Source: Halococcus hamelinensis 100A6 | Lineage (GTDB): Archaea > Halobacteriota > Halobacteria > Halobacteriales > Halococcaceae | Direction: 5' to 3' | Assembly (NCBI RefSeq): GCF_000336675.1 | Contig: NZ_AOMB01000032.1 | Location: forward strand, 158,564 to 196,772 | DNA: 38,209 nt | The notes under the pieces: model-generated | The model's input: the letters and a program-made list of their open reading frames with translations, nothing else | Databases searched by the model: none | Told to the model about the DNA's origin: nothing | Shown: one piece after another, positions 4,937-36,411 of the stretch | Numbering within the stretch: position 1 is the stretch's first letter | Layout: the number at the start of each line of letters is the position of its first letter | Translations under genes and position numbers: made by a program

Positions 4937-4938
4937 CG

Positions 4939-6568: not shown

Positions 6569-6601
6569 GAGCATACGGTGTCGTGGTAGTACGGAGCACC
6601 A

Positions 6602-7957: not shown

Positions 7958-8115
7958 ATTCCCCGTCCGTCGCTGTCCGGTTCGTCCTCGTCACCACTCG
8001 AAATCGTTCAAAACAGATAGCGAACGAGCCCGTCGTTCCTGCTCTTCCTCGAAGCGACGGAGAGTAACTGGCTATCCGGTGACCGAATCCCGCGACCGAC
8101 TATCCCGCCGTCGGG
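7958..8115. other. Convergent intergenic gap
   Basis: A 158-bp gap between the LigM-like gene and purU, which face each other. No clear terminator hairpin is seen; it presumably holds both 3' ends. Confidence 0.4.
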
Positions 8116-11450: not shown

Positions 11451-11451
11451 C

Positions 11452-12348: not shown

Positions 12349-12388
12349 TCCGTCGAGATTCGAACCGCCGCCGGGGGAGCGAGCAAAA

Positions 12389-12396
12389 CGTATAAG
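12389..12396 (+). promoter_or_regulatory. TATA box of the HpcH/HpaI aldolase gene
   Basis: The element cgtataag lies about 31 bp upstream of the ATG at 12424, giving a near-leaderless transcript separate from pabC. Confidence 0.55.
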
Positions 12397-12423
12397 CCGC
12401 TTGGAGAAGCGATCACAGTCGTC

Positions 12424-13203
12424 ATGGAGCAGCAAAACGGTTTCAGGCGGACCATCGAGAACGGCGACGTCGCCTTCGGCGCTCGGGCATCGACGTTCTC
12501 GCCGACGGTCATCGAGGTGTTCGGCGAGTTGGGGTTCGACTTCGTCTGGCTGGACTTCGAGCACATGGGGCCGAGCCCCTACGACAGCCGCGTCTTCGAG
12601 GACCTCACCCGAGCCGCCGAGGCCGGCGGGACGGAGCTGTTCGTCCGGCTTCCGTCGGGGGATCCGGCCCTCATCAGGAAGGTGCTCGACGCGGGCGTCC
12701 GGACGCTTCTCGTCCCCCGGGTGGACACCGCCGAGGAGGTCAGGGAGGCCGTGGAAGCCACCCGGTTCGTCTACGACGGCGAACCCGGCGAACGCGGGAT
12801 GGCGAGCGGCCGCGCCCGCAGCTGGGGCAGCAGCGATGCCTACGTTCGGACGGAGGACGAGGAGGTCTGTATCGGGGCGATGGTCGAGAAGACCGGCGCT
12901 GTGGAGTCGATCGAGGAGATCCTGTCGGTGCCGGAACTCGGGTTCGTCTTCGTCGGGCCCTCCGACCTCTCGGTGCAGCTGGGTCATCCCACGGACAAGA
13001 CCCATCCCGAGGTGCTCGAAACCATCGAAGGGATCGAAACGGCCGCTCGGTCGGCGGGGGTCCCGATGGGGAAGATAGCCAACGACCCGGCGGCCATCGA
13101 GGACGCCACGGAAGCCGGCTATCGGATCGTTCGGATGGGCGGCGACCTCGCCTCGATCCGAACGACGCTCCGTGACCGGCTGGCGGCGGTCGAGCGGCAG
13201 TGA
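12424..13203 (+). CDS. HpcH/HpaI family class II aldolase
   Basis: A 259-aa TIM-barrel aldolase of the HpaI / 2-keto-3-deoxy-rhamnonate aldolase type. Metal and substrate residues are visible: DFEHMGPSPYD (catalytic His47), VRLP (Arg75), GAMVEKTGAVE (metal ligand Glu155) and VGPSDLSVQLG (metal ligand Asp181). The family cleaves 4-hydroxy-2-oxo acids into pyruvate and an aldehyde. In homoprotocatechuate meta-cleavage, HpaI performs the last carbon-carbon cleavage. Here an extradiol dioxygenase and an aldehyde dehydrogenase are nearby, so an aromatic meta-cleavage role is plausible. A sugar-acid aldolase is the main alternative. It has its own TATA box and is monocistronic or followed by the ALDH after 124 bp with another promoter. 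Confidence 0.85.
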   Translation: MEQQNGFRRTIENGDVAFGARASTFSPTVIEVFGELGFDFVWLDFEHMGPSPYDSRVFEDLTRAAEAGGTELFVRLPSGDPALIRKVLDAGVRTLLVPRVDTAEEVREAVEATRFVYDGEPGERGMASGRARSWGSSDAYVRTEDEEVCIGAMVEKTGAVESIEEILSVPELGFVFVGPSDLSVQLGHPTDKTHPEVLETIEGIETAARSAGVPMGKIANDPAAIEDATEAGYRIVRMGGDLASIRTTLRDRLAAVERQ

Positions 13204-13289
13204 CCGACCGGTAGACCGGTACGGGAGACGGTGACGTGTGCGAGTTCGCTACTGTATACATCCCGCATCCGTTCGTGTTGGTGCGGCGA

Positions 13290-13300
13290 TACATTTTTAC
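13290..13300 (+). promoter_or_regulatory. TATA box of the aldehyde dehydrogenase gene
   Basis: The AT-rich element tacatttttac lies about 32 bp upstream of the ATG at 13328, so the transcript is near-leaderless. Confidence 0.5.
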
Positions 13301-13327
13301 GTGATTGGACCGTTCGGTAGCGTGGCC

Positions 13328-14818
13328 ATGCAAAACGATTTGGCGACCGACGCGGGCTGGAACGCCCTCTACGTCGACGGTGAGTGGGCGAGCGGCGAAA
13401 GCGGGGAGACGATCCCGGTCGAGGACCCATCGACCCGTGAGACCGTCGCCGAGGTCCCGGCCGCGACCGAGGCGGACGTCGATGCCGCCTACGAGGCGGC
13501 GGCGGCAGCACAGCGCGAGTGGGGGGCACAGCCGCCGGCACGGCGGCAGGAGGTCGTCCAGCAACTCATGGGGGTCATGCAGGACAACAGCTCCGAGATC
13601 GTCGATCTCCTGCGGGACGAGGTGGGTGGCTCGGGGATCATGGGTGAGACGTCGATCCAGATCGCGGCCGACCACGCGAGCGAGGCCGCGACCCTCCCGC
13701 GGCGGATGAAGGGCGAGTACGCCGACTCGAACATCCCGGGGAAGGAGAACGTCCTCCGACGCGGTCCGAAGGGTGTCGTGACGGTCATCTCGCCGTGGAA
13801 CTTCCCGCTCAACCTCTCGATGCGCGCCGTCGCGCCCGCCATCGCGGCCGGCAACAGCGTCGTGTTGAAACCCTCGACGGAAGCGCCGATAACGGGCGGG
13901 CTGCTCTTCGGCGCGCTCTTCGAGATGACCGACCTCCCGGCCGGCGTCCTGAACGTCGTCACGGGCTGTGGCTCCGAGATCGGTGACCGCGTCGCGGGCC
14001 ACCCCGAGAGCGACGTGGTCGCGTTCACCGGCTCGACCGAGGTCGGCCAGCACGTCTCGGGGATCGCGGGCGAGAACCTCGCCGTGCCGGCGATGGAGCT
14101 CGGCGGCAACAACGCCCACGTCGTGACCGCGGACGCCGACCTCGACCGGGCGCTCGACGGTGCCACGTTCGGGTCGTTCGTCCACCAAGGGCAGGTCTGC
14201 ATCTCGATCAACCGCCACATCGTCCACGAGGACGTCTACGACGAATACGTCGAACGGCTCGTCGACCGTGCGGAGTCCCTCGCTACCGGGAGCGCACACG
14301 AGGCGGAGACGATAGTGGGGCCGATCATCAACGAGTCCCAGCGCGACGAGATGCTCGACTACGTCGAGCGGACGGTCGATGCGGGTGCCACGCTCGAAAC
14401 CGGCGGCGGGGTCGTCGACCTCGACGGGGTCGACGACTCGCTGGTGGTCGAACCCACAGTATTGTCGGGCGTGACCAACGAGATGGCCGCCGCCTGTAAC
14501 GAGCACTTCGGTCCGATAGCCCCGGTCATCCCGTTCTCGACGGTCGACGAAGCCATCGAGCTCGCCAACGACACCGAGTACGGGCTTTCGGGCTCCGTCC
14601 ACGCTGGCGACCTCGACGTCGGCATCGATATCGCCGAACGGATGGAGACCGGCAACGTCCACATCAACGACCAGCCGATCAACGACGAGGCACACGTCCC
14701 GTTCAGTGGTATCGGCGCGTCCGGCGTCGGAACCTACAACAGCGACGCGTTCCTCCACGAGGTCACCGAGACGAAGTGGATCTCGATCCAGCACGAGGCG
14801 CGCGAGTACCCGTTCTAG
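13328..14818 (+). CDS. NAD(P)-dependent aldehyde dehydrogenase, vanillin/benzaldehyde dehydrogenase-like
   Basis: A 496-aa ALDH of standard length. Catalytic residues are all visible: ISPWNFP with Asn158, LKPSTEAP with Lys181, FTGSTEVG (NAD loop, 233-240), MELGGNN with Glu257 and HQGQVCISINR with the nucleophile Cys291. The strings HQGQVCxxxNRxIVHEDVY and VHINDQPxNDEAHVPFSG are, from memory, typical of the vanillin/benzaldehyde dehydrogenase branch (Vdh, YfmT) rather than of betaine or succinate semialdehyde enzymes. It would oxidise an aromatic aldehyde to the acid in the cytoplasm. Vanillin to vanillate would feed the LigM-like demethylase in the same island. A semialdehyde dehydrogenase of a meta-cleavage pathway is the alternative. 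The start at 13328 fits the TATA box. Confidence 0.8.
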   Translation: MQNDLATDAGWNALYVDGEWASGESGETIPVEDPSTRETVAEVPAATEADVDAAYEAAAAAQREWGAQPPARRQEVVQQLMGVMQDNSSEIVDLLRDEVGGSGIMGETSIQIAADHASEAATLPRRMKGEYADSNIPGKENVLRRGPKGVVTVISPWNFPLNLSMRAVAPAIAAGNSVVLKPSTEAPITGGLLFGALFEMTDLPAGVLNVVTGCGSEIGDRVAGHPESDVVAFTGSTEVGQHVSGIAGENLAVPAMELGGNNAHVVTADADLDRALDGATFGSFVHQGQVCISINRHIVHEDVYDEYVERLVDRAESLATGSAHEAETIVGPIINESQRDEMLDYVERTVDAGATLETGGGVVDLDGVDDSLVVEPTVLSGVTNEMAAACNEHFGPIAPVIPFSTVDEAIELANDTEYGLSGSVHAGDLDVGIDIAERMETGNVHINDQPINDEAHVPFSGIGASGVGTYNSDAFLHEVTETKWISIQHEAREYPF

Positions 14819-22240: not shown

Positions 22241-23467
22241 ATGAAGGTCCTCTACGTCCTCTCCCAGGACAGCGGCGGCCTGCCGCACTACGCCGCGGAG
22301 CTCGCGAACGCGATGTCCCACCACGCCGAGGTGGTCGTGCTCAAACCGTTCGAGACGACCGCCGACGAACTCTTCGACGACGCCGTCGACCGTGTCGAGG
22401 CGTTCGAGAACCTCGACATCGCGGCGACGGACCTCTACGCCGGCGACTGGAACCCGGTGGCGGCGTTCCGGGCGGCGCTGTCCTACCGCAGCCTCGCCCG
22501 CATCGAATCGTTCGACCCGGACATCGTGCACTTCACCTCGCCGGCCAGCATGTTCCCGCAGGTCCAGTTGTTCACCGCCCTCTACGGGATCGACGACGAC
22601 TATCCCGTGATCGAGACCTACCACGACGTGCTTCCGAACAAGCTCCTTCGCCGTGGCGAGGAGTTGGCGGCGAGCGAGCCGCTCTCGAACGTGCTCCTCG
22701 ACAACGTGATGAAGCTCGGACACCGCGCGCTCCCGGCGCTCGATCGGGCACACACCGTCGTACACACCGAGACGAACCGCGACACCCTCGTCTACAACGG
22801 CTTCGACCGGTCGGACGTCTCCGTCGTTCCACACGGAATGTACGAACTCTTCAGCCAGTACGACCACGCCGACGTCTCCGTCGAACCGCGAACGGTCCTC
22901 TGTTTCGGACAGATCGTCCCGACGAAAGCCCACGACATCGTCGCGAAGGCTATCCCGCTGGTGGCCGAACGCATCGGCGACGTCACCTGTGTCGTCGCCG
23001 GCTCCGGCGACCTCCCCGAGGAGGCGGAACGGGTGATCGACGCCCACCCGGAGCTGTTCGAGGTCGAGAACCGCTTCGTCCCGAACGAGGAGGTCGGCGC
23101 GTACTTCCGGCGAGCGCGGGTCTCGGTCCTGCCCCACCAGCGCCAGAACGGCCACAGCGGCGTGATGACCATCTCGTACGCCTACGGGACGCCCGTGGTC
23201 GCGGCCGACGTCGCGGATTTCCCCCGACTGGTCGAGGAGAGCGGCTGCGGGGTCGTCGTTCCGATGGACGACCCTGAACCACTGGCCGACGCACTCGCGA
23301 CCGTTCTGACGGACGACGACCGCTGGAGGGAGATGCGACGGAACACACAGCGCCTCCGCGAGGAGTTCTCCTGGGCGAACGTCGCGCGTGAGCACGTCGA
23401 GATCTATCGGGACGTGCTCGACGACCGACCGGAACGCACCGTCGCCGCACGACCCAGGTCTCGATGA
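22241..23467 (+). CDS. GT4-family glycosyltransferase
   Basis: A 408-aa GT-B fold enzyme. The N-terminal domain begins MKVLYVLSQDSGGLPHYAAEL, with the Gly-rich acceptor loop. The C-terminal domain has VLCFGQIVPTKAHDIV (nucleotide-sugar domain start) and the donor-site segment HSGVMTISYAYGTPVVA. The usual EX7E motif is not intact there: the first Glu is missing, as in the SGV-type subgroup of GT4. It should transfer a sugar from an NDP-sugar to a lipid-linked or surface glycan on the cytoplasmic side. ATG 22241 starts the canonical first beta strand. The next glycosyltransferase gene follows after 53 bp, probably in the same transcript. Confidence 0.85.
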   Translation: MKVLYVLSQDSGGLPHYAAELANAMSHHAEVVVLKPFETTADELFDDAVDRVEAFENLDIAATDLYAGDWNPVAAFRAALSYRSLARIESFDPDIVHFTSPASMFPQVQLFTALYGIDDDYPVIETYHDVLPNKLLRRGEELAASEPLSNVLLDNVMKLGHRALPALDRAHTVVHTETNRDTLVYNGFDRSDVSVVPHGMYELFSQYDHADVSVEPRTVLCFGQIVPTKAHDIVAKAIPLVAERIGDVTCVVAGSGDLPEEAERVIDAHPELFEVENRFVPNEEVGAYFRRARVSVLPHQRQNGHSGVMTISYAYGTPVVAADVADFPRLVEESGCGVVVPMDDPEPLADALATVLTDDDRWREMRRNTQRLREEFSWANVAREHVEIYRDVLDDRPERTVAARPRSR

Positions 23468-23520
23468 GATGGCCCCCGAACACCGCCACGTCGTCGATCG
23501 ACGATCCTTCGGAGAATAGC

Positions 23521-24654
23521 ATGAACGTCATCCAGATCCCACACGTCTACCGCCCGTCGCTCGGCGGCGTCGAGAACTACGTCCACCGGCTGAACCGCTC
23601 GCTCGAAACGCGCGGGCACGACACGGCGACGATCACGACCGACGTCAGCCTCGCGAACACGGACTCGCCGCTCGACCCGCAGGCGAACGTCGCCTACTGT
23701 GACACCGACTTCACGGTGTTTCGGAACCCGTTCTCGCTCGACCTCCACCGGCGCGTCGAGCGAAGCACGGCGGACCTCTATCACCTCCACAACCTCGAGT
23801 TCTTCTCGACGGTCGAAGCCGTCCACGCGCTCCCGGCGGATGCCCCGTCCGTGCTGACGGTCCACGGTTTCCGTCCGTCGCCGGACAGTTTCCTGCAGCG
23901 CGCGCTCACGGGGCTCTATCACCCGGTCGCGGCGTACGTCCTCGACCACGTCGACAGAACGATCGTGCTCGGCGCGACCGAGAAGGACGCGCTCGTCGAC
24001 GCGTTCGACGTCGATCCGTCGACCGTCGACGTCGTTCCGAACGGTATCCATCCCGAGGAGTTCGAGGTGACACGCGAGCGAGTCGTGGCGTTCAACCGCC
24101 GGTACGGCCTCGACCCGGAGACACCCACCATCCTGTTCGTCGGGCGGATGGTGCCCCTGAAACGCCCACACCTCCTCGTCGACGCGCTCGCCGAGTACCT
24201 CCCCGACCGCGACCTCGATGCGGTGATCGTCGGCACCGGCAGCGGCGAGTACGAACGGAACGTCCGCGAGCGCGCCGACGACCGCGTTCACTTCCTCGCC
24301 AATCTACCCTTCGACGAGCTGAAGGCGGCCTACCACGCCTCGGACCTGTTCACCCAGCTCTCCGGTGCGGAAGGGTTGCCGACGGTCGTGCTCGAAGCGA
24401 TGCACGCTGAGCTCCCCGTGGTCGCGACGTCCGTCGGCGCGCTTCCGGACGTCCTGAGCCACCGCGAGAACGGCTGGCTCCTCGACGCCGCACCCGAGGT
24501 CGGGGACGTCGCCGAGGCAATCCGGTTCTACCTCGACCGTCCCGACGAACGGCGACGGGTCGGTGTGCGGAACCGCGAGCTGGTCTACGACCGATACGAT
24601 TGGTCGCACGTCGCCGACGATATCGTGTCGACGTACGCTCGCGCGCTCGATTGA
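23521..24654 (+). CDS. GT4-family glycosyltransferase
   Basis: A 377-aa GT-B enzyme. The acceptor domain begins MNVIQIPHVYRPSLGGVENYV, a GT4 N-terminal signature. The donor domain has ILFVGRMVPLKRPHLLV and an intact EX7E motif in GAEGLPTVVLEAMHAELPVV. It probably adds a hexose or related sugar during surface polysaccharide or lipid-linked glycan assembly at the inner membrane face. It lies 53 bp downstream of the other GT4 gene and converges on the ATP-grasp gene with a 24-bp gap. The donor and acceptor are unknown. Confidence 0.9.
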   Translation: MNVIQIPHVYRPSLGGVENYVHRLNRSLETRGHDTATITTDVSLANTDSPLDPQANVAYCDTDFTVFRNPFSLDLHRRVERSTADLYHLHNLEFFSTVEAVHALPADAPSVLTVHGFRPSPDSFLQRALTGLYHPVAAYVLDHVDRTIVLGATEKDALVDAFDVDPSTVDVVPNGIHPEEFEVTRERVVAFNRRYGLDPETPTILFVGRMVPLKRPHLLVDALAEYLPDRDLDAVIVGTGSGEYERNVRERADDRVHFLANLPFDELKAAYHASDLFTQLSGAEGLPTVVLEAMHAELPVVATSVGALPDVLSHRENGWLLDAAPEVGDVAEAIRFYLDRPDERRRVGVRNRELVYDRYDWSHVADDIVSTYARALD

Positions 24655-24678: not shown

Positions 24679-25929
24679 CTACTGGCCGGCCATCTCGGTC
24701 CCCGAACGCCCACCGATCGGGAGCTGATTGAGAACCCCGTGGATGAAGGGGCCAGGATCGTCGAGGTGGAGGTAGTCGAAGTGTGGCTGGTCGTAACACG
24801 ACGAGAGGACCTCCCACACCGCGGTTCGGAAGGCGGGCGGTTCGATGGCGGGATAGCGCTTCCGGAGGATGCTCCAGAGATACTGGAATTCGCCGAAGAG
24901 GAGGTGATTGCCGGCTCCCACCTCGTACTCCGTTTCGATGCGGTCCGGCTCGCCCGTCGCCAGCAGCCAGTGCGCGTGGGGGAAGTCGGCCCCCGCGATG
25001 ACGTCCATCTCGATCGACGCCCAGACGCGGGGGTTGATCTCGGTGAACTTGTACTCCCCGGTGTCTGGCTCCTTGAGGAACTGGACCGAGGCGAGGCCGT
25101 GCCAGTCGAGGTGGTCGAGCATGGCTCGCCCCATCTCCTCGATCTCGGGGTCGTACATCGTCTCCCGGTAGACGCTCGCGCCGCCGGCGTAGGATTTCCC
25201 GCGGATCTGGCGCTTCTGGCACGTCAGCACCGATTTTCCCTCGTCGTAGAGCCCCCTGAAGCCGTATTCGGTGCGGGTGTCCCGGACGAGTTCCTGGACG
25301 ATCGGAACGTGGTCGGGGACGTGGCGACCGCTCTTGTGCATCGTCTCCTGTATCGCCTCCAGGTCGGGTTCGGTGCCGGCGGCGGTGTAGATCACCTCCA
25401 TCTTCCCCTCACACTCGTCCTCCGAGAGCGAGTCCACGTAGTCGGGCGTGAGGATCGAGTACCGGGGTTTGACGATCAGCTCCCGGCTCCAGTCGTCGAC
25501 CTCGTCGAAGGAGTACGTCTCCGGGATGGCGATCCCGGCCTCGCGTGCGGCCTCGGCCTGTCGAAGCCGGTCGTGGACCGTCCGGACCTGCTCGAAGGAC
25601 GGCCAGAGCGCGACGACGTGTTCCTCGAACTGGTCGCGATACTTCCCCAGCACGTAGCTGTCGACCTCCCGATGGGGAACGATCGTGTAGACGTCCGGCC
25701 GCTCGGCGAGCGAGAGGAGAGCGTCCTTGTAGGCCAGGAGGTCCTCGTAGGGCGAGGGGACGATGGCCGTCTCATCACAGTACCGGGACGCGAGGGCCGG
25801 TCGGTCCCGGTGTTCCGAGACCGCGATGGTGTGGACGCCGCGTTTCCCGAGCGAGCGAAGACACGAGATGCTGCTCCCGGAGTCGTTGATCGGGAGCAGT
25901 ACCGAGCGACCATCGGATTGTGGTTTCAT
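24679..25929 (-). CDS. ATP-grasp ligase-like protein
   Basis: A 416-aa ATP-grasp protein. The N-terminal domain (VLLPINDSGSSISCLRSLGKRG) is the pre-ATP-grasp Rossmann-like fold, with SRYCDETAIVPSP. The ATP-grasp core shows ELIVKPRYS (ATP-binding Lys), PIVQELV, and FTEINPRVWAS, in which Glu and Asn bind metal. Such proteins form amide or ester bonds between a carboxylate and an amine through an acylphosphate. In haloarchaeal and bacterial surface loci they are common and often uncharacterised. A palindromic TATA-like element (catagctatg near 25954-25963) is centred about 29 bp from the ATG, giving a leaderless transcript. It is at the end of a leftward run of glycan genes. Linking amino acids to a sugar acid is a reasonable guess. 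Confidence 0.8.
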   Translation of the reverse strand: MKPQSDGRSVLLPINDSGSSISCLRSLGKRGVHTIAVSEHRDRPALASRYCDETAIVPSPYEDLLAYKDALLSLAERPDVYTIVPHREVDSYVLGKYRDQFEEHVVALWPSFEQVRTVHDRLRQAEAAREAGIAIPETYSFDEVDDWSRELIVKPRYSILTPDYVDSLSEDECEGKMEVIYTAAGTEPDLEAIQETMHKSGRHVPDHVPIVQELVRDTRTEYGFRGLYDEGKSVLTCQKRQIRGKSYAGGASVYRETMYDPEIEEMGRAMLDHLDWHGLASVQFLKEPDTGEYKFTEINPRVWASIEMDVIAGADFPHAHWLLATGEPDRIETEYEVGAGNHLLFGEFQYLWSILRKRYPAIEPPAFRTAVWEVLSSCYDQPHFDYLHLDDPGPFIHGVLNQLPIGGRSGTEMAGQ

Positions 25930-26162: not shown

Positions 26163-26999
26163 TCAACGGTGTGCGTGAACGAAGTAGACGCCGGAGCGCC
26201 GGTCCGCCGGCCCGCCGAGGGGTGTGAGCGAGTAGCCCGCCGCCCGGAGAAACGCCTCGACCTCCTCGGCGCTCGTCCCGTACCGACGACACTTCGCCGA
26301 GTGAACTTCGAGATAGACCGACTCGACGGTATCGAGAAGATCCCCCAATCCACGGAGGACGAGGAGTTCCGCGCCCTGGACGTCGATCTTGACCACGTCG
26401 GGCGGCGCGAATTCATCGTCGAGGAGGTCCGCACCGCGGCGGGTCTCGACCGTTCGACCGACGCCGTCGGGTGCGAGATAGTGATGGCCGCCGCCGGCGT
26501 CGACGACTTCGGACGAGAGGGTCGTCGTTCCGTTCTCGTCCGAGAGCGCTATCGGCGAGACCGTCCAGCGTTCGGCGGGAGCGGTGGTTTCGAGGTTGGC
26601 CCGGAGCCGCGACCGATTCACCGCCTCGGGTTCGAACCCGACGACCTGACCGGTGGTCAGCGCGCTCGCGACGAAGCAGGTGTACGTCCCCACGCACGCC
26701 CCGACGTCCCAGACCGTCTCGGTGCCGTCGAGGCCCGAAAGCAACGCCGCGACCAGGTCCCGTTCACCACCGAGCGTCGTCGCCCGGCGGTACTCCGCCA
26801 CCGTCGAAACCCCGAACCGAACCGTTTCGCCGGCGACCGTCGTCTCGACGGTGTCGCCGGCCATCGCCGCCCGAGCCATCCAGTAGGCCGTCTCGACACG
26901 CCAGTAGACCGACGAGACGAACGGCGGAACTCCGTATCTGGCGGCCAGCCGATACGGGGCGTTGCGCAGTCGGTCCTTCGTCGTTCGAGTGTCTTGCAT
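26163..26999 (-). CDS. FkbM-family SAM-dependent methyltransferase
   Basis: A 278-aa methyltransferase. Motif I is VWDVGACVGTYT (96-107), followed by VVGFEPEAVNRSRLRANLE (acidic residue that binds the SAM ribose). The FkbM signature DVVKIDVQGAELLVLRGL lies at 201-218. FkbM proteins O-methylate hydroxyls of sugars and secondary metabolites. Inside this locus it probably methylates a glycan residue, which often caps or modifies chains. It follows the C-Ala-like gene by 72 bp on the same strand and precedes the ATP-grasp gene by 233 bp. The N-terminal 45 residues are an amphipathic helical extension. Confidence 0.87.
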   Translation of the reverse strand: MQDTRTTKDRLRNAPYRLAARYGVPPFVSSVYWRVETAYWMARAAMAGDTVETTVAGETVRFGVSTVAEYRRATTLGGERDLVAALLSGLDGTETVWDVGACVGTYTCFVASALTTGQVVGFEPEAVNRSRLRANLETTAPAERWTVSPIALSDENGTTTLSSEVVDAGGGHHYLAPDGVGRTVETRRGADLLDDEFAPPDVVKIDVQGAELLVLRGLGDLLDTVESVYLEVHSAKCRRYGTSAEEVEAFLRAAGYSLTPLGGPADRRSGVYFVHAHR

Positions 27000-27071: not shown

Positions 27072-27734
27072 TCACGCGGGGGTGAGCGGCCCCGTGCGCA
27101 GGAGCCGCTGTCCGACCCGTTCTGCGGTCTCGCCGAGCGCTCCCGTCGCGCCGCCGCCGGCGGCCAGCCGGTCGTTACCACCGGCCCCGCCGCCCGCCTC
27201 CTCGGCGATCTCGCGGCCGATGGCCGTCGCGCTGAACTCGTCCGCGAGCGCTTCGTCGACGGCGACGGCGAACGAGCCATCGCCGTGGGCGACGACGAGG
27301 GTGATCCCCTCGCCGTCCATCGCGCGCTTCGCGAGCGCCCGCGCGTCGGGGAGTTCCCCGTCCTCGAACTCGACGACGCGAACGGTCGGGTCGTCACCGC
27401 CCGATCCGTCGTCGACCGACCGATCCTCCGAGAGCGATCCCCACCACGAATCGGCCCATCGCGTGCGGACGGCATCGAGCTCGCGCCGCAGGTCGCGGCG
27501 TTCGTCGTCGAGCGCGGTGACCCGCTCGGGGAGGTCCTCGACCCTCGCATCGAGCCGTTCGGCCGCTTCCCGCGCCGCGCGTCGGTTCTCGCGGTCGACG
27601 TCGTTCGTGTTCGACTCCCAGTCCTTGCTCACGGTCAGACTCTCGCGAACCGTCCGTTCCCGCCGTCGCCAGTAGAGTGTCGTTCCGACGAGTGCGATGC
27701 TCGAAGCCAAGCCGACGCGTGTGGTGTTATTCAT
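27072..27734 (-). CDS. Membrane-anchored protein with AlaRS C-terminal (C-Ala / DHHA1)-like domain
   Basis: A 220-aa protein. Residues 7-22 form one TM helix, and 45-95 a likely coiled coil (EDLPERVTALDDERRDLRRE). Residues 118-212 resemble the DHHA1/C-Ala domain that ends alanyl-tRNA synthetase: TVRVVEFEDGE, ITLVVAHGDGSFAVAV, SATAIGREIAEEAGGG, and the Gly-rich loop GGGAGGNDRLAAGGG (181-195). In AlaRS this domain binds the tRNA elbow and is preceded by the same kind of coiled coil. No catalytic or editing HxxxH motif is present. The ATG overlaps the upstream FemAB-like gene by 8 bp, which suggests co-translation. It may bring tRNA or another nucleic acid to the membrane; this is inference. DHHA1-type domains in phosphodiesterases are the alternative parent. 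Confidence 0.65.
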   Translation of the reverse strand: MNNTTRVGLASSIALVGTTLYWRRRERTVRESLTVSKDWESNTNDVDRENRRAAREAAERLDARVEDLPERVTALDDERRDLRRELDAVRTRWADSWWGSLSEDRSVDDGSGGDDPTVRVVEFEDGELPDARALAKRAMDGEGITLVVAHGDGSFAVAVDEALADEFSATAIGREIAEEAGGGAGGNDRLAAGGGATGALGETAERVGQRLLRTGPLTPA

Positions 27735-28767
27735 GGATGAATCCCTTGAGTTTCGGCCCCAGGGTGGGGTGGGTTATCAGCGGAGCCAGCCGAGGCGTGA
27801 TCGTCGCGAGCCGTCCGTAACCGTCGAGCGAAGCGCGTCCAGCCCGCTCGGGTGGACTGACGAAGCTCACGAGCGGGTACTCGAACCCGCCGAACTGTGC
27901 TTTGAAACCGTGAACGCTGGAGCCGCGTCGCGAACGCCCGAAATCCACGACCGAGCGTCCGGCGCGACAGGCCCGCTCGATCGACTCGACGTAGAGCAGG
28001 TGGTTCGGTCGGTGGTCCCAGTGGGCGCGCTTCGAGGCCGGGGTCCACACCATCGTGGTGTCGCCCCACTCGAAGAGGAACACACCGGCGATCGGTTCGC
28101 CCGCGCGCTCGGCGAGCAGAACCGTGGCGGCCTCTCCGAGCCCGTCGGCGAGCGACGCGAAGAATTCCTCGGGGAACTGCGGGCTCCCGAGACGACGCAT
28201 CGTTTCGAGATACAGCGGGTAGAACTCGGCGACCGTGCCCTCGGTCACGGTGACGCCGTGGTCGCGGGCGGTTCGCACGCACCGGCGGATGTCCTTCTCG
28301 AACGTGGACTCCCAGAGCGTCTCGAACGGCCGATCGAGCGACAGTCGGATCGACGACCCGGTCGGAACCCCGCCGTAACCCGCCTCGTTGTACCCGCTCA
28401 CGCCGCTCCAGCCGCCGTCCTTGACGATGCGGGTGTCGCCGTCGAGTTCGGACAGGACCGACGTCGTGGAGACGGCCTCCTCGACCAGCGGAAAGCCGTA
28501 CTCACAGAATGGGTTGACCACACTGTGGCCGACCCCCTCCCGGACGCTGAACCCCGGGACCATCCCTCGGGTCGCGCCGGAGTCGGGATCCGTCAGGAGG
28601 CGGTGTCGGGGCTCGTACCCGAACGCCGTCTCGACGGCGGCCGCCCACTCCGGGGTGTGAAACACCGTCGCAGCGGGGTGGTCCTCGACGATGGACCGCC
28701 ACTCCGACGACCGAGTGGACACGGGTTGGGTCTCGACGTCGCTACCGTCGATCGTCGTCCGGCTCAT
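27727..28767 (-). CDS. FemAB-like / GNAT-fold transferase (XrtA/PEP-CTERM-type)
   Basis: A 346-aa protein with two GNAT-like halves. The opening ATVFHTPEWAAAVETAFGYEP and later MRRLGSPQFPEEFFASL, AGVFLFEWGDT and FGRSRRGSSVHGFKAQFGG are, from memory, those of FemAB-like proteins tied to exosortase/PEP-CTERM exopolysaccharide loci (acetyltransferase_6 fold). Bacterial FemXAB enzymes transfer amino acids from aminoacyl-tRNA onto peptidoglycan precursors; other members N-acylate sugars. It overlaps the deacetylase gene by 4 bp upstream and the C-Ala-like gene by 8 bp downstream. The deacetylase could create the amine it acylates. The acyl donor (aminoacyl-tRNA or acyl-CoA) is not determined. Confidence 0.75.
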   Translation of the reverse strand: MSRTTIDGSDVETQPVSTRSSEWRSIVEDHPAATVFHTPEWAAAVETAFGYEPRHRLLTDPDSGATRGMVPGFSVREGVGHSVVNPFCEYGFPLVEEAVSTTSVLSELDGDTRIVKDGGWSGVSGYNEAGYGGVPTGSSIRLSLDRPFETLWESTFEKDIRRCVRTARDHGVTVTEGTVAEFYPLYLETMRRLGSPQFPEEFFASLADGLGEAATVLLAERAGEPIAGVFLFEWGDTTMVWTPASKRAHWDHRPNHLLYVESIERACRAGRSVVDFGRSRRGSSVHGFKAQFGGFEYPLVSFVSPPERAGRASLDGYGRLATITPRLAPLITHPTLGPKLKGFIHE

Positions 28768-29687
28768 CGTTCACCCCCGATCCGAAGCGGGGCGGTGCCG
28801 TCGGTAGCCACCTCGCCCGGGTCGGCGTACCCGTCCGCGACGGCACCGGCCGTCCCGAAGGCGAACTCGTCGAGCAGCGCTTCGAGCTTCGCCGCCAGTC
28901 GCTCGATCCCGTGGAAGCTAACGAAGCGTGCGTGTGCCGGGATCGGGGCGTGTTCGGCCGCGGACCGAACGGCCGGGTTGAACTCCCAGGGGTGGAAGTA
29001 GATCGTCGCCGGATGCCCGCGTGCGTTGAGGCTCCGTATCCCGCGTTTGACGGGCCAGGTCGGCAGCACTCGCGCGTAGAACCCGCCAGCGACCGGCAGC
29101 CGAACCCGCGGGTGGAACACCGCGAGCGGGAGTTCGACGAGCCGACCGTCGGCCTCGTCACCCGAATCCGTGAACGGCGCTCGCGGGTCGAGGCGGTAGG
29201 GCCGAACCGGTGCGTCGGCCACACCGTACATCGGCGTCTTGACGGGGAAGACGCTGGAATCGTACCGATAGCCGGCGGCTTCGAGCGCCTCGATGGCCCA
29301 CGCCGTCCGGGGGGTCACCGAGAAGTTGGGCGCACGAAATCCCGTCGGCCACGTTCCGGTCGCGTCGTGGATGGCGACGGCGCTCGCTTCGAGCTCCGCG
29401 GCGAACTCGTCCCTGTCGAGTTCGAACAGCGGCCGGTGGGTGTGGCCGTGTGAGCCGACCTCGTGACCCGCATCGGCGATCCGTGCCACGAGGTCCGGCC
29501 GTTCGTGGGCCAGTTCGCCGACGACGAAGAACGTCGCCCGGACGTCGAACCGGTCGAGGATAGCGAGAACGCGTTCGACCGATGCCTCGACGTGTGTCGC
29601 CGGGTCCGTCACTCGCTCCCGAAGCAGCGTCGCCGAGTACCAGTGTTCGACGTCGAACGAGAGGACGTTCGTCACCTCGTCGCTCAT
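28764..29687 (-). CDS. Polysaccharide deacetylase (NodB fold), PEP-CTERM-locus type
   Basis: A 307-aa NodB-type deacetylase. Catalytic elements are visible: SFDVEHW (Asp12), SHGHTH (His80 and His84 metal ligands), GFRAPNF (Arg118) and ATIYFHPWEF near the end. The order and the block YRYDSSVFPVKTPMYGVADA are, from memory, those of deacetylases found with FemAB in bacterial exosortase-linked exopolysaccharide loci. It should remove N-acetyl groups from a polymer, leaving free amines. No signal peptide is visible, so it may act on lipid-linked intermediates in the cytoplasm. The ATG at 29687 overlaps the GT2 stop as ATGA; the extra upstream codons are inside the GT2 gene. Confidence 0.88.
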   Translation of the reverse strand: MSDEVTNVLSFDVEHWYSATLLRERVTDPATHVEASVERVLAILDRFDVRATFFVVGELAHERPDLVARIADAGHEVGSHGHTHRPLFELDRDEFAAELEASAVAIHDATGTWPTGFRAPNFSVTPRTAWAIEALEAAGYRYDSSVFPVKTPMYGVADAPVRPYRLDPRAPFTDSGDEADGRLVELPLAVFHPRVRLPVAGGFYARVLPTWPVKRGIRSLNARGHPATIYFHPWEFNPAVRSAAEHAPIPAHARFVSFHGIERLAAKLEALLDEFAFGTAGAVADGYADPGEVATDGTAPLRIGGER

Positions 29688-30787
29688 CGGCTCCTCCCGT
29701 CGATCCCGGCGTTCTCGAAGTAGGTGCTGAGCGAGTGGAGGACGATCGCGGTGAAGCACGCGAAGATACCGACCAGCACGAGGAACACCGCGCTGAGCGA
29801 GAGCCCGACCGGAAACGTTCCCGACTGGACGTAGCTGACGACCGCCCAGTAGCCGACGCCAAGCCCGCCGAAGGTGAGCGAAAAGCCCGGCAGCGCGAGC
29901 GCCGTGAGCGGGCGTTCGCGTTCGACGGTCTTCAGGATGTTCTGGAGGAGGATCATCCCGTGGGAGAGCGGGTCCTGACTGCTCGCGTTCGCCACGTCGT
30001 AGGTGACCGTGATCGGGACCTCCTCGACGGGGTAGTCGTGGTGGTGGATGTGATAGAGGATGTCCGTGCTCGCGTCCATCCAGTCGCCGATGGTCATGTC
30101 CTCGGCGAGGGTCTCGATCGCCTCCCGGTCGTACGCCCGAAAGCCGCTCTGTGTGTCGCTCATGCGCGAGTCGGCTCGCACGATGCCCATGCTCAGGTTC
30201 GTGAGCACGTTGATGACGCGGAGCCCCACGCGGCGGTAGAACGGCGCGTTCGATACGGCCCCGTCCACGAACCGGCTGCCGATGACGAGCGGGGCGTGCG
30301 TGGTGGCTTGCGCCCTGACCAGCCGGGGAACGTCCGCGGGGTCGTGCTGTCCGTCGGCATCGAGAACGACGAGATGGGTCACGTCGTGACCCTTCGCGGT
30401 CTCGAAGGCGGTCTTGAGGGCAGCACCGTAGCCCCGATTCCGGTCGTGGGCGCTGACGACCGCGCCAGCCTCCGCGGCCCTGATCGCGGTGCTGTCGCCG
30501 CTCCCGTCGTCCACGACCAGCACCAGATCGGCGTGCTCGGCCACCCGCCGCACCACGTCGCCGATGGTGGCTTCCTCGTTGTACGCCGGGATCGCTACCA
30601 TCACGTCGGGGTCGGCGTGGGCGGATGCCGACCCCGACCCCGACGTGTGTTCGGTCGGCTGTCGGCCGTTTTCGGACCTATCGCTTTCGAGGGGGTGAAC
30701 CCGGTCCGGAACGTGGTCGTCGACGACGTCGACGGCCGAACCCACCCCCTCACTCGCGGAAACGCCGTCAGCAGTGTGTTCGCTCAT
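29684..30787 (-). CDS. GT2-family glycosyltransferase with C-terminal TM segments
   Basis: A 367-aa protein. After an acidic, Ser-rich N-terminal extension (about 60 residues), the GT-A domain begins with VMVAIPAYNEE, followed by LVVDDGSGD and the metal-binding DADGQHDP (143-150). The order resembles dolichol-phosphate sugar synthases (DPM1/AglJ-like), with the lipid-facing RMSDTQSGFRAYDREA stretch. Two C-terminal TM helices (about 295-350) hold it at the membrane. It probably starts or charges a polyprenyl/dolichyl-phosphate sugar. The ATG at 30787 fits a TATA box at 30821-30830. It is the first gene of a tightly overlapping leftward operon with the deacetylase, FemAB-like and C-Ala-like genes. 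Confidence 0.87.
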   Translation of the reverse strand: MSEHTADGVSASEGVGSAVDVVDDHVPDRVHPLESDRSENGRQPTEHTSGSGSASAHADPDVMVAIPAYNEEATIGDVVRRVAEHADLVLVVDDGSGDSTAIRAAEAGAVVSAHDRNRGYGAALKTAFETAKGHDVTHLVVLDADGQHDPADVPRLVRAQATTHAPLVIGSRFVDGAVSNAPFYRRVGLRVINVLTNLSMGIVRADSRMSDTQSGFRAYDREAIETLAEDMTIGDWMDASTDILYHIHHHDYPVEEVPITVTYDVANASSQDPLSHGMILLQNILKTVERERPLTALALPGFSLTFGGLGVGYWAVVSYVQSGTFPVGLSLSAVFLVLVGIFACFTAIVLHSLSTYFENAGIDGRSR

Positions 30788-31304: not shown

Positions 31305-32636
31305 ATGGGCCAGGAACGTGTCTCGATCGGACGGCGAACGTTCCTGGCGCTCGTCGCCGCGGGCAGCGGTACCATCGCCGCCTGCTCGTCGCCGAACCGG
31401 CCCGCAGAACGACCCCCCACGGAGATCCCAATGTCAAACCTCGATCGCGTATACGAGATCACGGAGAACTACCACGTCGGACCGAAACGAGAGCGCCCGG
31501 AACCGGGTGACGCCGCGGGAACGATCTGGGAGGCGACCGACCCGGGCCCGGCGGGTGCGACCCGGCGGTCGCTCTCCGACGGCGACCGCTGGATACCGTT
31601 GGTCGTCGAGCCCGAATCGCCGAGGGCGACCGGCGAGTACCACCTCACCGCCGACGACGGCTTCGAGGGGATCCAGAACGTGATCGACCGAACGGGCGGC
31701 AACGTCGTGATTCGGCTCGCGCCGGGGACGTACGTCGGGCGCGAACTCACCCTCGAACACGGCGTCGTGCTGGTCGGGTCGGGTCGCAACGCGACCACGC
31801 TCAAGCTCGAGGACGGGGCGAACGCGGACCTCGTGACGACGCCCGACCTCCCCGACCGAAACGTGATGGAGTGTACCCTCCGGGACATCACGTTCGACGG
31901 GAACAGGGCGAACAACGCCTCCGGGAACGCGGTGTACGGGGCGTTCTGGAACAGTCGGTTCGTGGACTGCAACTTCTACGCCGCACCCGGGAACGGGTTC
32001 TGGCTCGCCGGGTCGACGGCGAGCACCGACGACAACCAGTTCCGTGGCTGTCAGTTCCTCAACAATCGGGCCGCCGGGCTCCGCGGTGGCGGCAACAAAC
32101 GTTCCTATCCCTCCGTCGGTGTCGCCCGCGTCGATACCAACTGGTTCGGCTACAATGGGGGCCCCGCCGTCACCGCCCGGGGGGAATCCTGGAAGATCAG
32201 CGATTCGAAGTTCTACGCCAACGGGCTGGACGGCGACCCGACGATCGAGTTCGACCGGTGTAGCTACTCGAACGTCACCGGCTGCGACATCCACTCGGAC
32301 TACCCCGACCACCCGCTCATCCTGGTCTCGGCGTCGAAGGGGGTCGAGAGCATCGGCAACCAGATCAAGAGCAACGACCTGCGGGGGAACTACCGGTCGG
32401 CGGTAGGGTGTCTCGTCGACGGGAACGACATCGTGGCGCTCCAGATCCACGACAACACGATACAGAGCAACGGTCGCTCGGGGTCGGGGATCGTCGCGCG
32501 CGAGACCGGACCGGGGTCGTTCGTCGACTGTTCGTTCAGGAACAACACGTTCGTCGGCACCACGACCGGTCGTGCGGTCAGACTCCCGGACAGCTGGCGC
32601 ACGAACGGGAACATCAACGCCGGCCGAATCGATTGA
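31305..32636 (+). CDS. Tat-exported lipoprotein with right-handed beta-helix
   Basis: A 443-aa secreted protein. The N-terminus has a twin-arginine motif SIGRRTFLAL (Arg10-Arg11), a hydrophobic segment and the lipobox-like IAAC (Cys27), as in haloarchaeal Tat lipoproteins. From about residue 115 onward there are short repeated turns rich in Asn and Gly, for example RDITFDGNRANNASGN, VDCNFYAAPGNGF and RGCQFLNNRAAGLRGG. These form a right-handed parallel beta-helix as in pectate lyases and polysaccharide-modifying enzymes. It would be anchored outside the cell. A role in trimming, binding or epimerising the locus's polysaccharide is plausible; catalytic residues were not identified. ATG 31305 sits right before the Tat signal. 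Confidence 0.8.
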   Translation: MGQERVSIGRRTFLALVAAGSGTIAACSSPNRPAERPPTEIPMSNLDRVYEITENYHVGPKRERPEPGDAAGTIWEATDPGPAGATRRSLSDGDRWIPLVVEPESPRATGEYHLTADDGFEGIQNVIDRTGGNVVIRLAPGTYVGRELTLEHGVVLVGSGRNATTLKLEDGANADLVTTPDLPDRNVMECTLRDITFDGNRANNASGNAVYGAFWNSRFVDCNFYAAPGNGFWLAGSTASTDDNQFRGCQFLNNRAAGLRGGGNKRSYPSVGVARVDTNWFGYNGGPAVTARGESWKISDSKFYANGLDGDPTIEFDRCSYSNVTGCDIHSDYPDHPLILVSASKGVESIGNQIKSNDLRGNYRSAVGCLVDGNDIVALQIHDNTIQSNGRSGSGIVARETGPGSFVDCSFRNNTFVGTTTGRAVRLPDSWRTNGNINAGRID

Positions 32637-32707: not shown

Positions 32708-34135
32708 ATGAGTCAGTCGACGATCGTTCGGTCCTCGTTCGGAACGTTCTTCGCCCGGGTCGCGACCTCCGTCTCCGTGTTCCTCGCCGTCTTCTATCTC
32801 GCGACCACCGGCGCGTCGGTCCTCGGGGTGTATTCGCTGTTCATCGCCGTCGTGGAGGTCGTCGGGCTGGTGACCGACGCCGGCCTTTCCGCGGCCGCGA
32901 AGAAACGGATCAGCGAGGGCGTCGAGCGCGACGAGTTCTTCACCGCCGCTCTCCTCACTCGTCTCGGCATCTTCGTCGGCGTCGCGGCCGTTCTGGTCGG
33001 CTTCAGGGGCGAGATCACCGCCTACATCGGCCACGAGTTCGCGGTGCCGTTCTTGTTGCTGTGCTCGCTCACCTATCTCGTCCAGTCGACGCTCTACGAA
33101 TCCCTGAGCGGCGAGAAACGGGTCGCCAGAGCCGGACTGCTGGGGTTCGTCTCCAACGGCGGCCGTCTGGTCGCGTGGATACCCTTGTTGGCACTGGACT
33201 ACGGCCTGTTCGGGATCCTCGTCGGGGTTTGGCTCGGGCAGGTGCTGGCCGTCGTCGTCGGCGTGGGCATGCTCTCGTTGCGGCTGCGACGACCGGCACG
33301 GCGACACTTCGAGAGCCTGTTCCGGTTCGCGAAGTACAGCTGGATGGGGGCGCTCCAGGAGACCTCCTGGATCTGGACGGACACGCTCATCCTCGGGGTC
33401 TTCGTCGCCCCCTCGTTCGTCGGGGTCTACGAGCTGAGCTGGCAGATCACCGGCGTCCTGTTCTTCGTCGCGTCGGCGATCAGTTCGGCGCTGTTCCCGA
33501 ACATCAGCGAACTCGCGGCTCGAAACGACTACGACCGGGTCACCGACCTCCTCGAACGCTCGCTGGTCTACGTCGGTATCATGTCGATCCCGGGGTTCGT
33601 CGGCGGGGTCATCTTCGCCGAGCCGATACTTGGGATGTTCGGCGACGAGTACCGGGTCGGTGCCACCGTCGTCATCGTGTTGCTCCTCGCGCGCGCGTTC
33701 CACAGCTACGAGGTGGTGTTCGGCGAGGCGCTCAACGCGCTCGACCGTCCGGACCTGATGTTCAGAACGAACCTCGTCTTCCTCGTGTTGCTCATCTCGC
33801 TCAACGTCGTCGGTATCGTCGTCTTCGGGTGGGTCGGTGCGGCGTTCGCCACGACGGTGGCGATGGTGGTCCGGACGGCGCTCTCGTTCTACTTCATCCG
33901 GTCGATACTCTCGTTCACGGTTCCCACGAGGGAGATCGGCTTCGAGGTCCTCGCCGCGCTCTTCATGGGTGCGTGTCTCTGGGTACTCACCCCGCGTTCG
34001 ACGCTCGCGACCCCGACCGTCGTTCTGTTGGTCGGGACGGGAGCGGCGATCTACGCGCTCACCGTTCTGGTGTTGATAGAACGGGTACGCATCGAGGCGT
34101 CCGGGCTCGTCTCGAACGTCCGGACGCTTCTCTAG
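32708..34135 (+). CDS. Oligosaccharide flippase (Wzx/MATE-like, polysaccharide transporter family)
   Basis: A 475-aa polytopic protein with about 12-14 TM helices. It begins STIVRSSFGTFFARVATS, typical of polysaccharide-export flippases, and contains amphipathic loops such as FRFAKYSWMGALQETSW and SALFPNISELAARNDYD that mark the family. It should move lipid-linked oligosaccharides or repeat units across the membrane to the outside (AglR/Wzx role). It lies 71 bp downstream of the beta-helix gene with a weak TATA-like element near 32643. Its stop codon overlaps the stop of the convergent DUF2206 gene in a shared CTAG (34132-34135). Confidence 0.87.
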   Translation: MSQSTIVRSSFGTFFARVATSVSVFLAVFYLATTGASVLGVYSLFIAVVEVVGLVTDAGLSAAAKKRISEGVERDEFFTAALLTRLGIFVGVAAVLVGFRGEITAYIGHEFAVPFLLLCSLTYLVQSTLYESLSGEKRVARAGLLGFVSNGGRLVAWIPLLALDYGLFGILVGVWLGQVLAVVVGVGMLSLRLRRPARRHFESLFRFAKYSWMGALQETSWIWTDTLILGVFVAPSFVGVYELSWQITGVLFFVASAISSALFPNISELAARNDYDRVTDLLERSLVYVGIMSIPGFVGGVIFAEPILGMFGDEYRVGATVVIVLLLARAFHSYEVVFGEALNALDRPDLMFRTNLVFLVLLISLNVVGIVVFGWVGAAFATTVAMVVRTALSFYFIRSILSFTVPTREIGFEVLAALFMGACLWVLTPRSTLATPTVVLLVGTGAAIYALTVLVLIERVRIEASGLVSNVRTLL

Positions 34136-36411
34136 GCGTTCGTCCGGTTCCCTCGAATGTAGTAGACCGAGGCGCGGTCGTTCTCGTAGACCGGTTCTCG
34201 GTCGGCGAGAACGGTCCGGTAGAACGACGTCCGCTCGACGGAGACGTACGCCGAGTCGCTCCCCGGCTTCGTCATGGGTCGCTCGCTCACGTAGACGTAA
34301 CCGGGCCCCTCGAAACTTGTTCGCCCCAGCCATATCGACTCGATCCGGTCGCTCGGGACGACCTCCCCGACGAGTAACCCATCCCGGCTCTTGACCCGGT
34401 CGTAGTTGTTGTAGACCGCCACGTCCGTACCGGGGTTCGACGAGCGTTCCGCGAGCCACCGAGTGGCGTCGACCTCGTCCTGGCTGTAGACCGGCCAGCC
34501 AGCGCTCTGGTTGTAGTTGATGCTGTACGCCGGCTCCGGCTGGTCGGCGACCGCGAAGGCGGTTCCCGAGCTGAACAGGAAGAGGAGCGCGAGGAACACC
34601 GCGAAGACGCCCTCGGCCGGGATGGCGCTGAGGCGCGGACGTGGCCCGACGCGTGGAAGCCGTGCGGCACCCCGTCCGAGGACGGCGAGGGCGGTTCGCA
34701 TACCGGTGATGGCGAACGGTGCGAGGACGAACAGGGCGATCTGGAGCGTCCGGTCGAAGCCCATCCCGAACGTGACCACCGCCGACGAGACGAGGAACCC
34801 GAACACCCCGACCGAGAACAGCGTGTACTCGGCGTTCCGGACGGCATCGCGGTCGGTGGCGAGCGCGTAGAGGGCGGCGAGGATGCCGAGACCGACGAGG
34901 CCGACGAGCGCGATGTAGAGGAGCTTCGAGGCGAGCCAGTAGACCGACTCGGTCTCCGTCATCGCATAGCCCACACCGCTCCGGCCGGAGTCCGAGAGCG
35001 GAAACGCCTCGAACACCTCGCCGGCGACGCTCACGACGCTATCGAGGTTCTCCCCGGACGCGGTGAGGGCGTACCACAGCACCCAGAAGCCACCGAAGAA
35101 CGCGACGAGCGCCGGTCGCGTGATTCGAGTGACGACACCGACGCCGCTCACCAGCCGAACGACGTGCCGGGCGACGAGACCGAACCCCAGGAACGCGACG
35201 AACAGCAGGCTGACGCCGTAGTGGGCGAAGACCACCGACATCGCGAACGCGAGCCCGAGAACCCACCGCTGGAGCGCCGAGAGCCGTTCGTCGAGGAACA
35301 CCATGAGCAGGAGGACACCGAACAGGCCGGCGACGAGCTGTTTGTCGGGCATGTCCTTGAAGAACCCGTAGTAGAACACGAGCGTGAACGGCGCGAGCAC
35401 GGCGACCGAGCGCTCGCGAAACTCGGCCCGTGCGATGTACCAGAGACAGACCGGAAGCAACGAGACCAAGAGCGGGTAGACGAGCTTGTAGACCCAGACG
35501 ATCTCAAGCCCGGTGACCATCGAATAGACCGCTGCCAGCAGCGTGATCGCGACCAGGGAGGCGTTCGAGTCGCCACCCGTCGCGTTCCAGTACCCGTCCT
35601 CGAGGATCGTCGCGGCCGTGGCGTACTCGTAGTGGATGTCGAACCCCCAGATGTGCCCCGAGACCAGTGTCATCTGTAACAGCACCGTCGCCGCCACCGC
35701 CCAGACCCCGTAGGGGTAGAGCACCGCCGAGCCCCGCCACCGGAGGAGTGCCAGTGGAACGACCGCGACCACACACGACAGGGCGACGAGCACCCCATCC
35801 GAACCCGGAGCGGTGCCGGGGAGCGTCACGAGGACGGCACCGAGCGGAAGCGCCGTCACGGCGGCGAGCGCGAGCCAATCGCGTGGCGACAGCCCTCGGA
35901 CGACCGACCGAGCCGTGCGTTCGTCGTGACCGAACTCCCAGCCGATCACCCGGGGCTGCAACCGGTCGGAGATCCCGACGACCGAGACGGTAGCCCACTC
36001 GAAGACCGCCAGGGGTTGGAACGGCCGTCGAAGCACCCCCGACCCGACGGAACGGGCGGCTTGCAAACAGAGCACGAGCGCTGCGACGGCGAGCGTCATG
36101 CTCAACGGGGTGAGCGGTCGGTCGATAGCCAGCCCCGACAGCACGACGTCGACCGTTATCGAGAGACAGACGACGAGGGGGAGGCTGAGTCCGACGGAGT
36201 AGACGACGATGGGGCCGGGCGAGCGGTCGTCGAGCCCGAGCAGCGAGACGAGCAGGTACCCCGGCACCACCCCGAGGAGAACACAGCCGAGGACCGCTCG
36301 GAGGACGGTCGTTCCCGGCACGTCGATATCGAGGGTTACGACCACCAGGAGAACCGAGACCATCACGGCGAGCGACGCCACCTCCAGTTCGTTCGAGCGG
36401 GTGTCCATCAT
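34132..36411 (-). CDS. DUF1616/DUF2206 membrane protein, GT-C-like
   Basis: A 759-aa protein with many TM helices. The N-terminal part (about 10-120) looks like DUF1616, with VVPGYLLVSLLGL and a second hydrophobic pair. The central part resembles DUF2206: GFDIHYEYATAATILEDGYW, then VWVYKLVYPLLVSLLPV. The acidic motif DIHYEY (258-263) after a TM helix is placed like the DxD/DxE of GT-C glycosyltransferases. The C-terminal about 140 residues form an extracellular domain. It may transfer sugars from a polyprenyl phosphate donor outside the cell; this is inference. A TATA-like element at 36440-36447 gives a near-leaderless start, with two consecutive ATGs (36411 and 36408). Confidence 0.75.
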   Translation of the reverse strand: MMDTRSNELEVASLAVMVSVLLVVVTLDIDVPGTTVLRAVLGCVLLGVVPGYLLVSLLGLDDRSPGPIVVYSVGLSLPLVVCLSITVDVVLSGLAIDRPLTPLSMTLAVAALVLCLQAARSVGSGVLRRPFQPLAVFEWATVSVVGISDRLQPRVIGWEFGHDERTARSVVRGLSPRDWLALAAVTALPLGAVLVTLPGTAPGSDGVLVALSCVVAVVPLALLRWRGSAVLYPYGVWAVAATVLLQMTLVSGHIWGFDIHYEYATAATILEDGYWNATGGDSNASLVAITLLAAVYSMVTGLEIVWVYKLVYPLLVSLLPVCLWYIARAEFRERSVAVLAPFTLVFYYGFFKDMPDKQLVAGLFGVLLLMVFLDERLSALQRWVLGLAFAMSVVFAHYGVSLLFVAFLGFGLVARHVVRLVSGVGVVTRITRPALVAFFGGFWVLWYALTASGENLDSVVSVAGEVFEAFPLSDSGRSGVGYAMTETESVYWLASKLLYIALVGLVGLGILAALYALATDRDAVRNAEYTLFSVGVFGFLVSSAVVTFGMGFDRTLQIALFVLAPFAITGMRTALAVLGRGAARLPRVGPRPRLSAIPAEGVFAVFLALLFLFSSGTAFAVADQPEPAYSINYNQSAGWPVYSQDEVDATRWLAERSSNPGTDVAVYNNYDRVKSRDGLLVGEVVPSDRIESIWLGRTSFEGPGYVYVSERPMTKPGSDSAYVSVERTSFYRTVLADREPVYENDRASVYYIRGNRTNA

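Follow-up and report, generated by a model that had tools for sequence, protein, structure and literature searches.

A predicted tRNA-dependent aminoacylation cassette in a surface-polysaccharide locus of Halococcus hamelinensis

A 38,209-nucleotide stretch of contig NZ_AOMB01000032.1 of Halococcus hamelinensis 100A6 (hereafter the window) contains a minus-strand gene cluster encoding a GT2 glycosyltransferase, a NodB-type deacetylase and a FemAB-like protein. A fourth gene, for a stand-alone protein resembling the C-terminal (C-Ala) domain of alanyl-tRNA synthetase (AlaRS), was found to belong to the cluster. On balance, the locus probably serves a surface polysaccharide and carries a tRNA-dependent aminoacylation cassette, in which the deacetylase would free an aminosugar and the FemAB-like enzyme would add to it an amino acid from a tRNA docked on the C-Ala protein.

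Gene content of the operon

The original prediction had joined the first three genes into one production unit on the basis of their overlaps. Both overlaps were present: the GT2 gene (30787-29684) shares ATGA with the deacetylase gene (29687-28764), which in turn shares ATGA, 4 bp, with the FemAB gene (28767-27727). However, the unit was incomplete. A fourth gene (27734-27072) begins within the FemAB stop region, overlapping the FemAB gene by 8 bp, and belongs to the same unit, so that the three-gene version was too short. The four genes are as follows.

29684-30787, minus strand: GT2 glycosyltransferase of the polyprenyl-phosphate-sugar synthase type (AglJ/PpgS-like); Glycos_transf_2, E 8.8e-22; one C-terminal transmembrane (TM) segment
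28764-29687, minus strand: NodB-type polysaccharide deacetylase with DUF3473; TIGR03006, 209.9 bits; zero TM segments predicted
27727-28767, minus strand: FemAB-type (double GNAT) transferase, predicted to be aminoacyl-tRNA dependent; TIGR03019, 125.4 bits; PDB profile matches to FemX and FmhB
27072-27734, minus strand: N-terminal hydrophobic helix, helical arm and AlaRS C-Ala (DHHA1) globular domain, predicted to be anchored in the membrane and to dock tRNA for FemAB; TIGR03683, E 1.8e-8

The GT2 protein scored 118.6 bits against the AglJ model and 118 bits against the PpgS model, under the cut-off in both cases. For the deacetylase, the top NCBIfam match was TIGR03006 (E 3.9e-62, residues 7-283), below its curated cut-off of 276.2 bits, and Pfam matches were to DUF3473 (90 bits) and Polysacc_deac_1. 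Its catalytic motifs FDVEHW, HGHTH, RAPNFS and HPWE were intact, in keeping with a NodB/DUF3473 catalytic architecture. Similarly, the sole NCBIfam match of the FemAB protein was TIGR03019 (E 2.5e-36), below the curated cut-off of 260.35 bits, which was passed in none of 194 Halobacteria genomes. Thus, the two models proposed earlier as a check both gave matches, and the claimed resemblance to the pair of bacterial XrtA loci was borne out as kinship: judged by these scores, the deacetylase and FemAB are relatives of the XrtA equivalogs, not members.

The FemAB-like transferase and its C-Ala neighbor

In comparisons with the PDB, a 28-row profile of the FemAB protein matched FmhB (6snr; E 3.2e-17), Sba18 and Sbb17 (about 5e-16), and FemX (about 5e-13), and a profile from the C-Ala-linked subset alone still matched Sbb17/Sba18 and FemX (E 1.9e-8 to 2e-6). 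With the AlphaFold model (predicted local distance difference test score, 89), the 11 top entries of a structure comparison (Z 24.5 to 25.6) were all aminoacyl-tRNA-dependent Fem enzymes. The model aligned with 4ii9 at Z 25.6 (root mean square deviation [rmsd], 3.1 over 287 residues) and with 9wqy at Z 25.3, and it has a FemX-like double GNAT fold. Lower-ranked matches were MprF/aminoacyl-phosphatidylglycerol synthases (Z 17 to 20) and then acyl-CoA GNATs (Z 16.3 or less). Lys289 was invariant in all 28 rows and aligned with Lys305 of the FemX FK motif, the key active-site residue (PMC12945691).

The strongest Pfam match of the protein was Acetyltransf_6 (70.8 bits), and its Halocatena homologues are annotated as GNAT, as would fit an N-acyltransferase that uses acyl-CoA to re-acylate the aminosugar after deacetylation, the role of the C-Ala protein being unrelated. 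We regard this alternative as unlikely, because acyl-CoA GNATs fit the model far worse than Fem ligases do, the canonical acetyl-CoA loop [QR]xxGx[GA] was absent from the window FemAB, and a strictly linked tRNA-binding domain would serve no purpose. The original prediction had the deacetylase free sugar amines for acylation by the FemAB-like enzyme. This logic was supported and can be sharpened: because the protein agrees with Fem ligases in both fold and sequence, and the C-Ala gene is always adjacent, FemAB is predicted from sequence and model most likely to transfer an aminoacyl group from tRNA.

With the FemABX enzymes of peptidoglycan bridge synthesis (FemX, FmhB and FemA), the window protein shares the double GNAT fold (Z about 25), the Lys305 equivalent and the wall-precursor logic. 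In contrast to them, it belongs to an archaeon without peptidoglycan, has a predicted sugar-amine acceptor and is accompanied by a separate AlaRS-derived partner. H. hamelinensis has one more FemAB-like gene, a distant one that lacks C-Ala (G000:C43:82541-83056, locus L126). It has relatives in genomes G250, G209, G157, G253 and G236, and it too is a candidate for aminoacylation of the Halococcus wall. The Actinarchaeum and Halocatena loci also carry an extra PF13480/FemAB-like gene (L046:12592-13593 and L149:5667-6662), divergent from the GT2 gene and adjoining a beta-helix gene.

In the fourth protein (220 amino acids), residues 48 to 197 match the archaeal AlaRS C terminus, and a profile of the six-member family matched the AlaRS C-terminal structure 2zvf (E 5.7e-12), 3g98 (4.4e-11) and 3wqy (1.2e-10). 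Its AlphaFold model (score, 84) consists of an N-terminal helix, a helical hairpin and a DHHA1 globular domain, and it superposed on the Aquifex C-Ala domain 3g98 with Z 15.1 and an rmsd of 1.8 Å over 100 residues, so that sequence and fold agree in assigning a C-Ala domain. The helical arm and the globular domain with its GG-x-GG...A..GG motif are shared with the AlaRS C-Ala domain and type II AlaX. In contrast to these, the window protein is limited to the C-Ala region, the aminoacylation and editing domains being absent, has a hydrophobic N-terminal helix and is tied to FemAB. A split AlaRS was rejected because a complete AlaRS is encoded elsewhere in the genome (contig C8); the stand-alone C-Ala protein thus supplies the tRNA-binding domain a second time. 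The basic residues that flank the GG motif in other AlaRS are missing from the window protein; as they are likewise missing from the sampled haloarchaeal AlaRS, this was set aside as an argument against tRNA binding.

The distribution of the C-Ala gene and of the FemAB clade was surveyed in 391 Halobacteria genomes. With a threshold of at least 115 bits (the next matches fall to 66 bits and are mostly genes of AlaRS or AlaX length), stand-alone C-Ala was present in 18 genomes, in all 18 within 165 bp of a FemAB gene. It lay directly downstream of FemAB on the same strand in 17, 13 of these with the identical 8-bp overlap. In the remaining genome (G166; locus L144, G166:C43:43000-52000), C-Ala is divergent to a sister-clade FemAB, which suggests a partner replacement or a second association. 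In the reverse direction, the FemAB clade profile yielded 16 intact genes of at least 500 bits plus two broken ones (G303 and G113), followed by a drop to 142 bits. C-Ala was present in 17 of these 18 genomes, and in the exception (G339) about 110 bp of contig remain beyond the FemAB gene. One of the FemAB genes beside C-Ala (L103, G113:C17:193788-194914) is split into two frames, by pseudogene formation or sequencing error.

The C-Ala-linked FemABs formed one clade (support, 98/98), and pairwise distances of FemAB and C-Ala were correlated with an r of 0.95, a value that shared ancestry alone can raise. Protein identities across the loci went down to 28%. The holders include Halococcus thailandensis, Halocatena marina, Halocatena pleomorpha, Halocatena salina (on a 532-kb plasmid), Halalkalicoccus paucihalophilus, Actinarchaeum halophilum, a Salinarchaeum metagenome-assembled genome and Halobacterium bonnevillei. 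In Halocatena salina, the operon is annotated just as GT2, polysaccharide deacetylase, GNAT, DHHA1 domain protein, FkbM and ATP-grasp.

Kinship with bacterial XrtA loci and flanking genes

Adjacent deacetylase-FemAB pairs recur across haloarchaeal families and are also seen in methanogen-type Halobacteriota and bacterial XrtA loci, which argues that the adjacency is not due to chance. In the latter two groups the pair occurs without C-Ala. For example, on Nitratidesulfovibrio vulgaris pDVUL01 (an XrtA/PEP-CTERM pair), deacetylase and FemAB genes are adjacent and overlapping, as in the window, within a polysaccharide locus with GT2, ATP-grasp and flippase genes; the window locus differs in its scores below the cut-offs, in having no exosortase partners and in its extra C-Ala gene. 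The pair has the look of a portable module for polysaccharide modification that gained C-Ala in one haloarchaeal lineage.

The kinship to TIGR03006 and TIGR03019 is what would favor a role in a surface-protein sorting system like that of bacterial XrtA/PEP-CTERM, and a link to archaeosortase had been suggested on these grounds. Such a role is highly improbable, and the link was rejected on the distribution and position of ArtA and exosortase. ArtA was present in all of the 194 Halobacteria genomes surveyed for it, while adjacent deacetylase-FemAB pairs occurred in about 10 and are thus missing from most ArtA genomes. In H. hamelinensis, ArtA lies on contig C23 and the pair on contig C32. No exosortase match (PF09721) was obtained in its genome (96.4% complete; the XrtA-specific model was not searched). 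In the pair-bearing genomes with a PF09721 match on the same contig (G019, G056 and G100), the match was the ArtA gene, more than 300 kb away. The proposed check for archaeosortase or PGF-CTERM genes beside the locus turned up neither, a PGF-like C terminus being absent from the window open reading frames.

The operon is flanked by the following genes.

26163-26999, minus strand: FkbM-family methyltransferase; TIGR01444, 94.5 bits; downstream of C-Ala in 8 compared loci
24679-25929, minus strand: ATP-grasp protein, possible second amide ligase or sugar-transfer ATP-grasp; ATPgrasp_Ter, 29.9 bits
22241-23467 and 23464-24654, plus strand: two GT4 glycosyltransferases; Pfam Glycos_transf_1 family matches
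31305-32636, plus strand: right-handed beta-helix protein (lyase/epimerase-like); Beta_helix, E 3e-10; adjoins the operon in Halocatena too
32708-34135, plus strand: MATE/Wzx-like polysaccharide flippase; MatE, E 9.5e-11; about 14 predicted TM segments
34132-36411, minus strand: DUF2206 polytopic membrane protein, conserved across these loci; DUF2206, E 1.2e-27

The ATP-grasp gene was present in 8 C-Ala loci and also in many sister-pair loci without C-Ala. At the contig end (36793-38207), a gene for a TbsP-type transcription regulator is followed by a truncated NAD-dependent epimerase gene. An unrelated block (252-14818) contains genes for two AMP-binding acyl-CoA ligases, an IclR regulator, MTHFR-like, GcvT-like and ACT-formyltransferase proteins, an HpcH aldolase and an aldehyde dehydrogenase. 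An Rfam search of the window gave no match.

Proposed pathway and Halococcus wall chemistry

In the proposed pathway, the GT2 enzyme would make a polyprenyl-phosphate-linked N-acetyl-aminosugar. The deacetylase, with its intact catalytic motifs and no TM segment, would strip the acetyl group on the cytoplasmic side and expose the amine, to which FemAB, as its family and fold suggest, would move an amino acid, likeliest glycine or alanine, from aminoacyl-tRNA. The co-translated C-Ala protein, to judge from its domain and linkage, may keep the tRNA elbow at the membrane beside FemAB, and the flippase would export the decorated unit.

In BD-12 (streptothricin-type) biosynthesis, a Fem-like enzyme places the glycine of Gly-tRNA on the C2-amine of streptothrisamine (PMC10156733), and the streptothricin gulosamine pathway is cited as including an N-acetyl-D-gulosamine deacetylase (cited in PMC10156733). 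Thus, a deacetylase followed by a Fem transferase acting on an aminosugar is a logic documented elsewhere. The fold of the BD-12 enzyme (Orf11; Sba18/Sbb17 structures) is that of the window FemAB, the Sba18 structure with streptothrisamine being among its top fold matches, and aminoacylation of an aminosugar C2-amine from tRNA is also what is predicted for the window enzyme, although the former belongs to a small-molecule antibiotic pathway of Streptomyces. To our knowledge, the BD-12 enzyme has no C-Ala partner.

Several observations weigh against tRNA-dependent aminoacylation of a sugar amine at this locus. No aminoacyl-tRNA synthetase was recognized among the scanned window proteins, and no tRNA gene was found within the window. 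In the window copy of C-Ala, the N-terminal helix is only weakly hydrophobic (17-residue mean, 1.07), and the globular domain is similar to the one in RecJ as well. The sister FemAB clade lacks C-Ala, as does the pair of bacterial XrtA loci. Moreover, C-Ala can bind DNA instead of tRNA in some species, as in human cytoplasmic AlaRS (PMC10485164). The last two points would be expected if the C-Ala protein bound nucleic acid for regulation or structure, or were a membrane scaffold only, with FemAB working without it; the exact gene overlap and the reciprocal presence over such deep divergence make this quite improbable. Finally, a TIGR03006-like deacetylase gene does not directly precede FemAB in several of the 18 C-Ala loci, and the Fem ligases of peptidoglycan use peptide amines, in agreement with a different acceptor (a peptide, another amino sugar or an aminolipid) and a deacetylase whose target lies elsewhere in the same polysaccharide. 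We regard this as improbable, since the deacetylase adjoins FemAB in haloarchaea, methanogen-type Halobacteriota and bacteria and the acceptor in the BD-12 precedent is a sugar amine.

The walls of Halococcus consist of sulfated heteropolysaccharide, and that of H. morrhuae has three domains held together in part by N-glycyl-glucosaminyl bridges (PMC4187196); the N-glycyl-glucosamine of this wall is credited to Steber and Schleifer 1979 (cited in PMC4187196). Wall glycine was 100 nmol/mg in H. morrhuae versus 7 in H. salifodinae (PMC4187196). Here a sugar amine of a Halococcus wall bears an amino acid, as proposed for the operon product, although the operon is present in just 4 of 9 good Halococcus genomes (H. 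hamelinensis [G000], G209, G236 and G250), being missing from G044, G073, G157, G253 and G323. A direct assignment of the operon to the H. morrhuae compound is not claimed, because the 16S group expected to include H. morrhuae (G157, G253, G209 and G236 [H. thailandensis]) is split, with two genomes having the operon and two not. By analogy, then, N-glycyl-glucosamine may serve as a chemical precedent within the genus, not as proof. Sulfatase-fold genes lie near the operon in Actinarchaeum and Halocatena (L046:3557-4816 and L149:17389-18723) and are of interest in view of the sulfated Halococcus walls.

Tentatively, a more specific version can be put forward, in which a two-part, membrane-bound archaeal aminoacyl-tRNA transferase may operate at the locus, with C-Ala binding tRNA in trans for a Fem-type enzyme whose acceptors are deacetylated sugars of the surface polysaccharide, and with the ATP-grasp protein possibly closing interstrand amide bridges similar to the N-glycyl-glucosaminyl ones in Halococcus walls.

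The known tRNA-dependent transferases of the Fem type act in the synthesis of bacterial peptidoglycan or of Streptomyces antibiotics. In the open-licence literature, searches combining FemAB with haloarchaea and deacetylase, or with archaea, aminoacyl-tRNA and polysaccharide, gave no report of such an enzyme in archaeal surface glycans, and no genes assigned to Halococcus N-glycyl-glucosamine were found. The operon is a concrete candidate gene set for N-glycyl-glucosamine-like chemistry in the same genus. If the proposal is true, the dedicated C-Ala partner would be a part of translation reused to deliver aminoacyl-tRNA to wall synthesis, and a wall chemistry resembling peptide bridges would have evolved outside peptidoglycan. 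The findings also suggest that the uncharacterized FemAB encoded in bacterial XrtA loci may likewise work with aminoacyl-tRNA.

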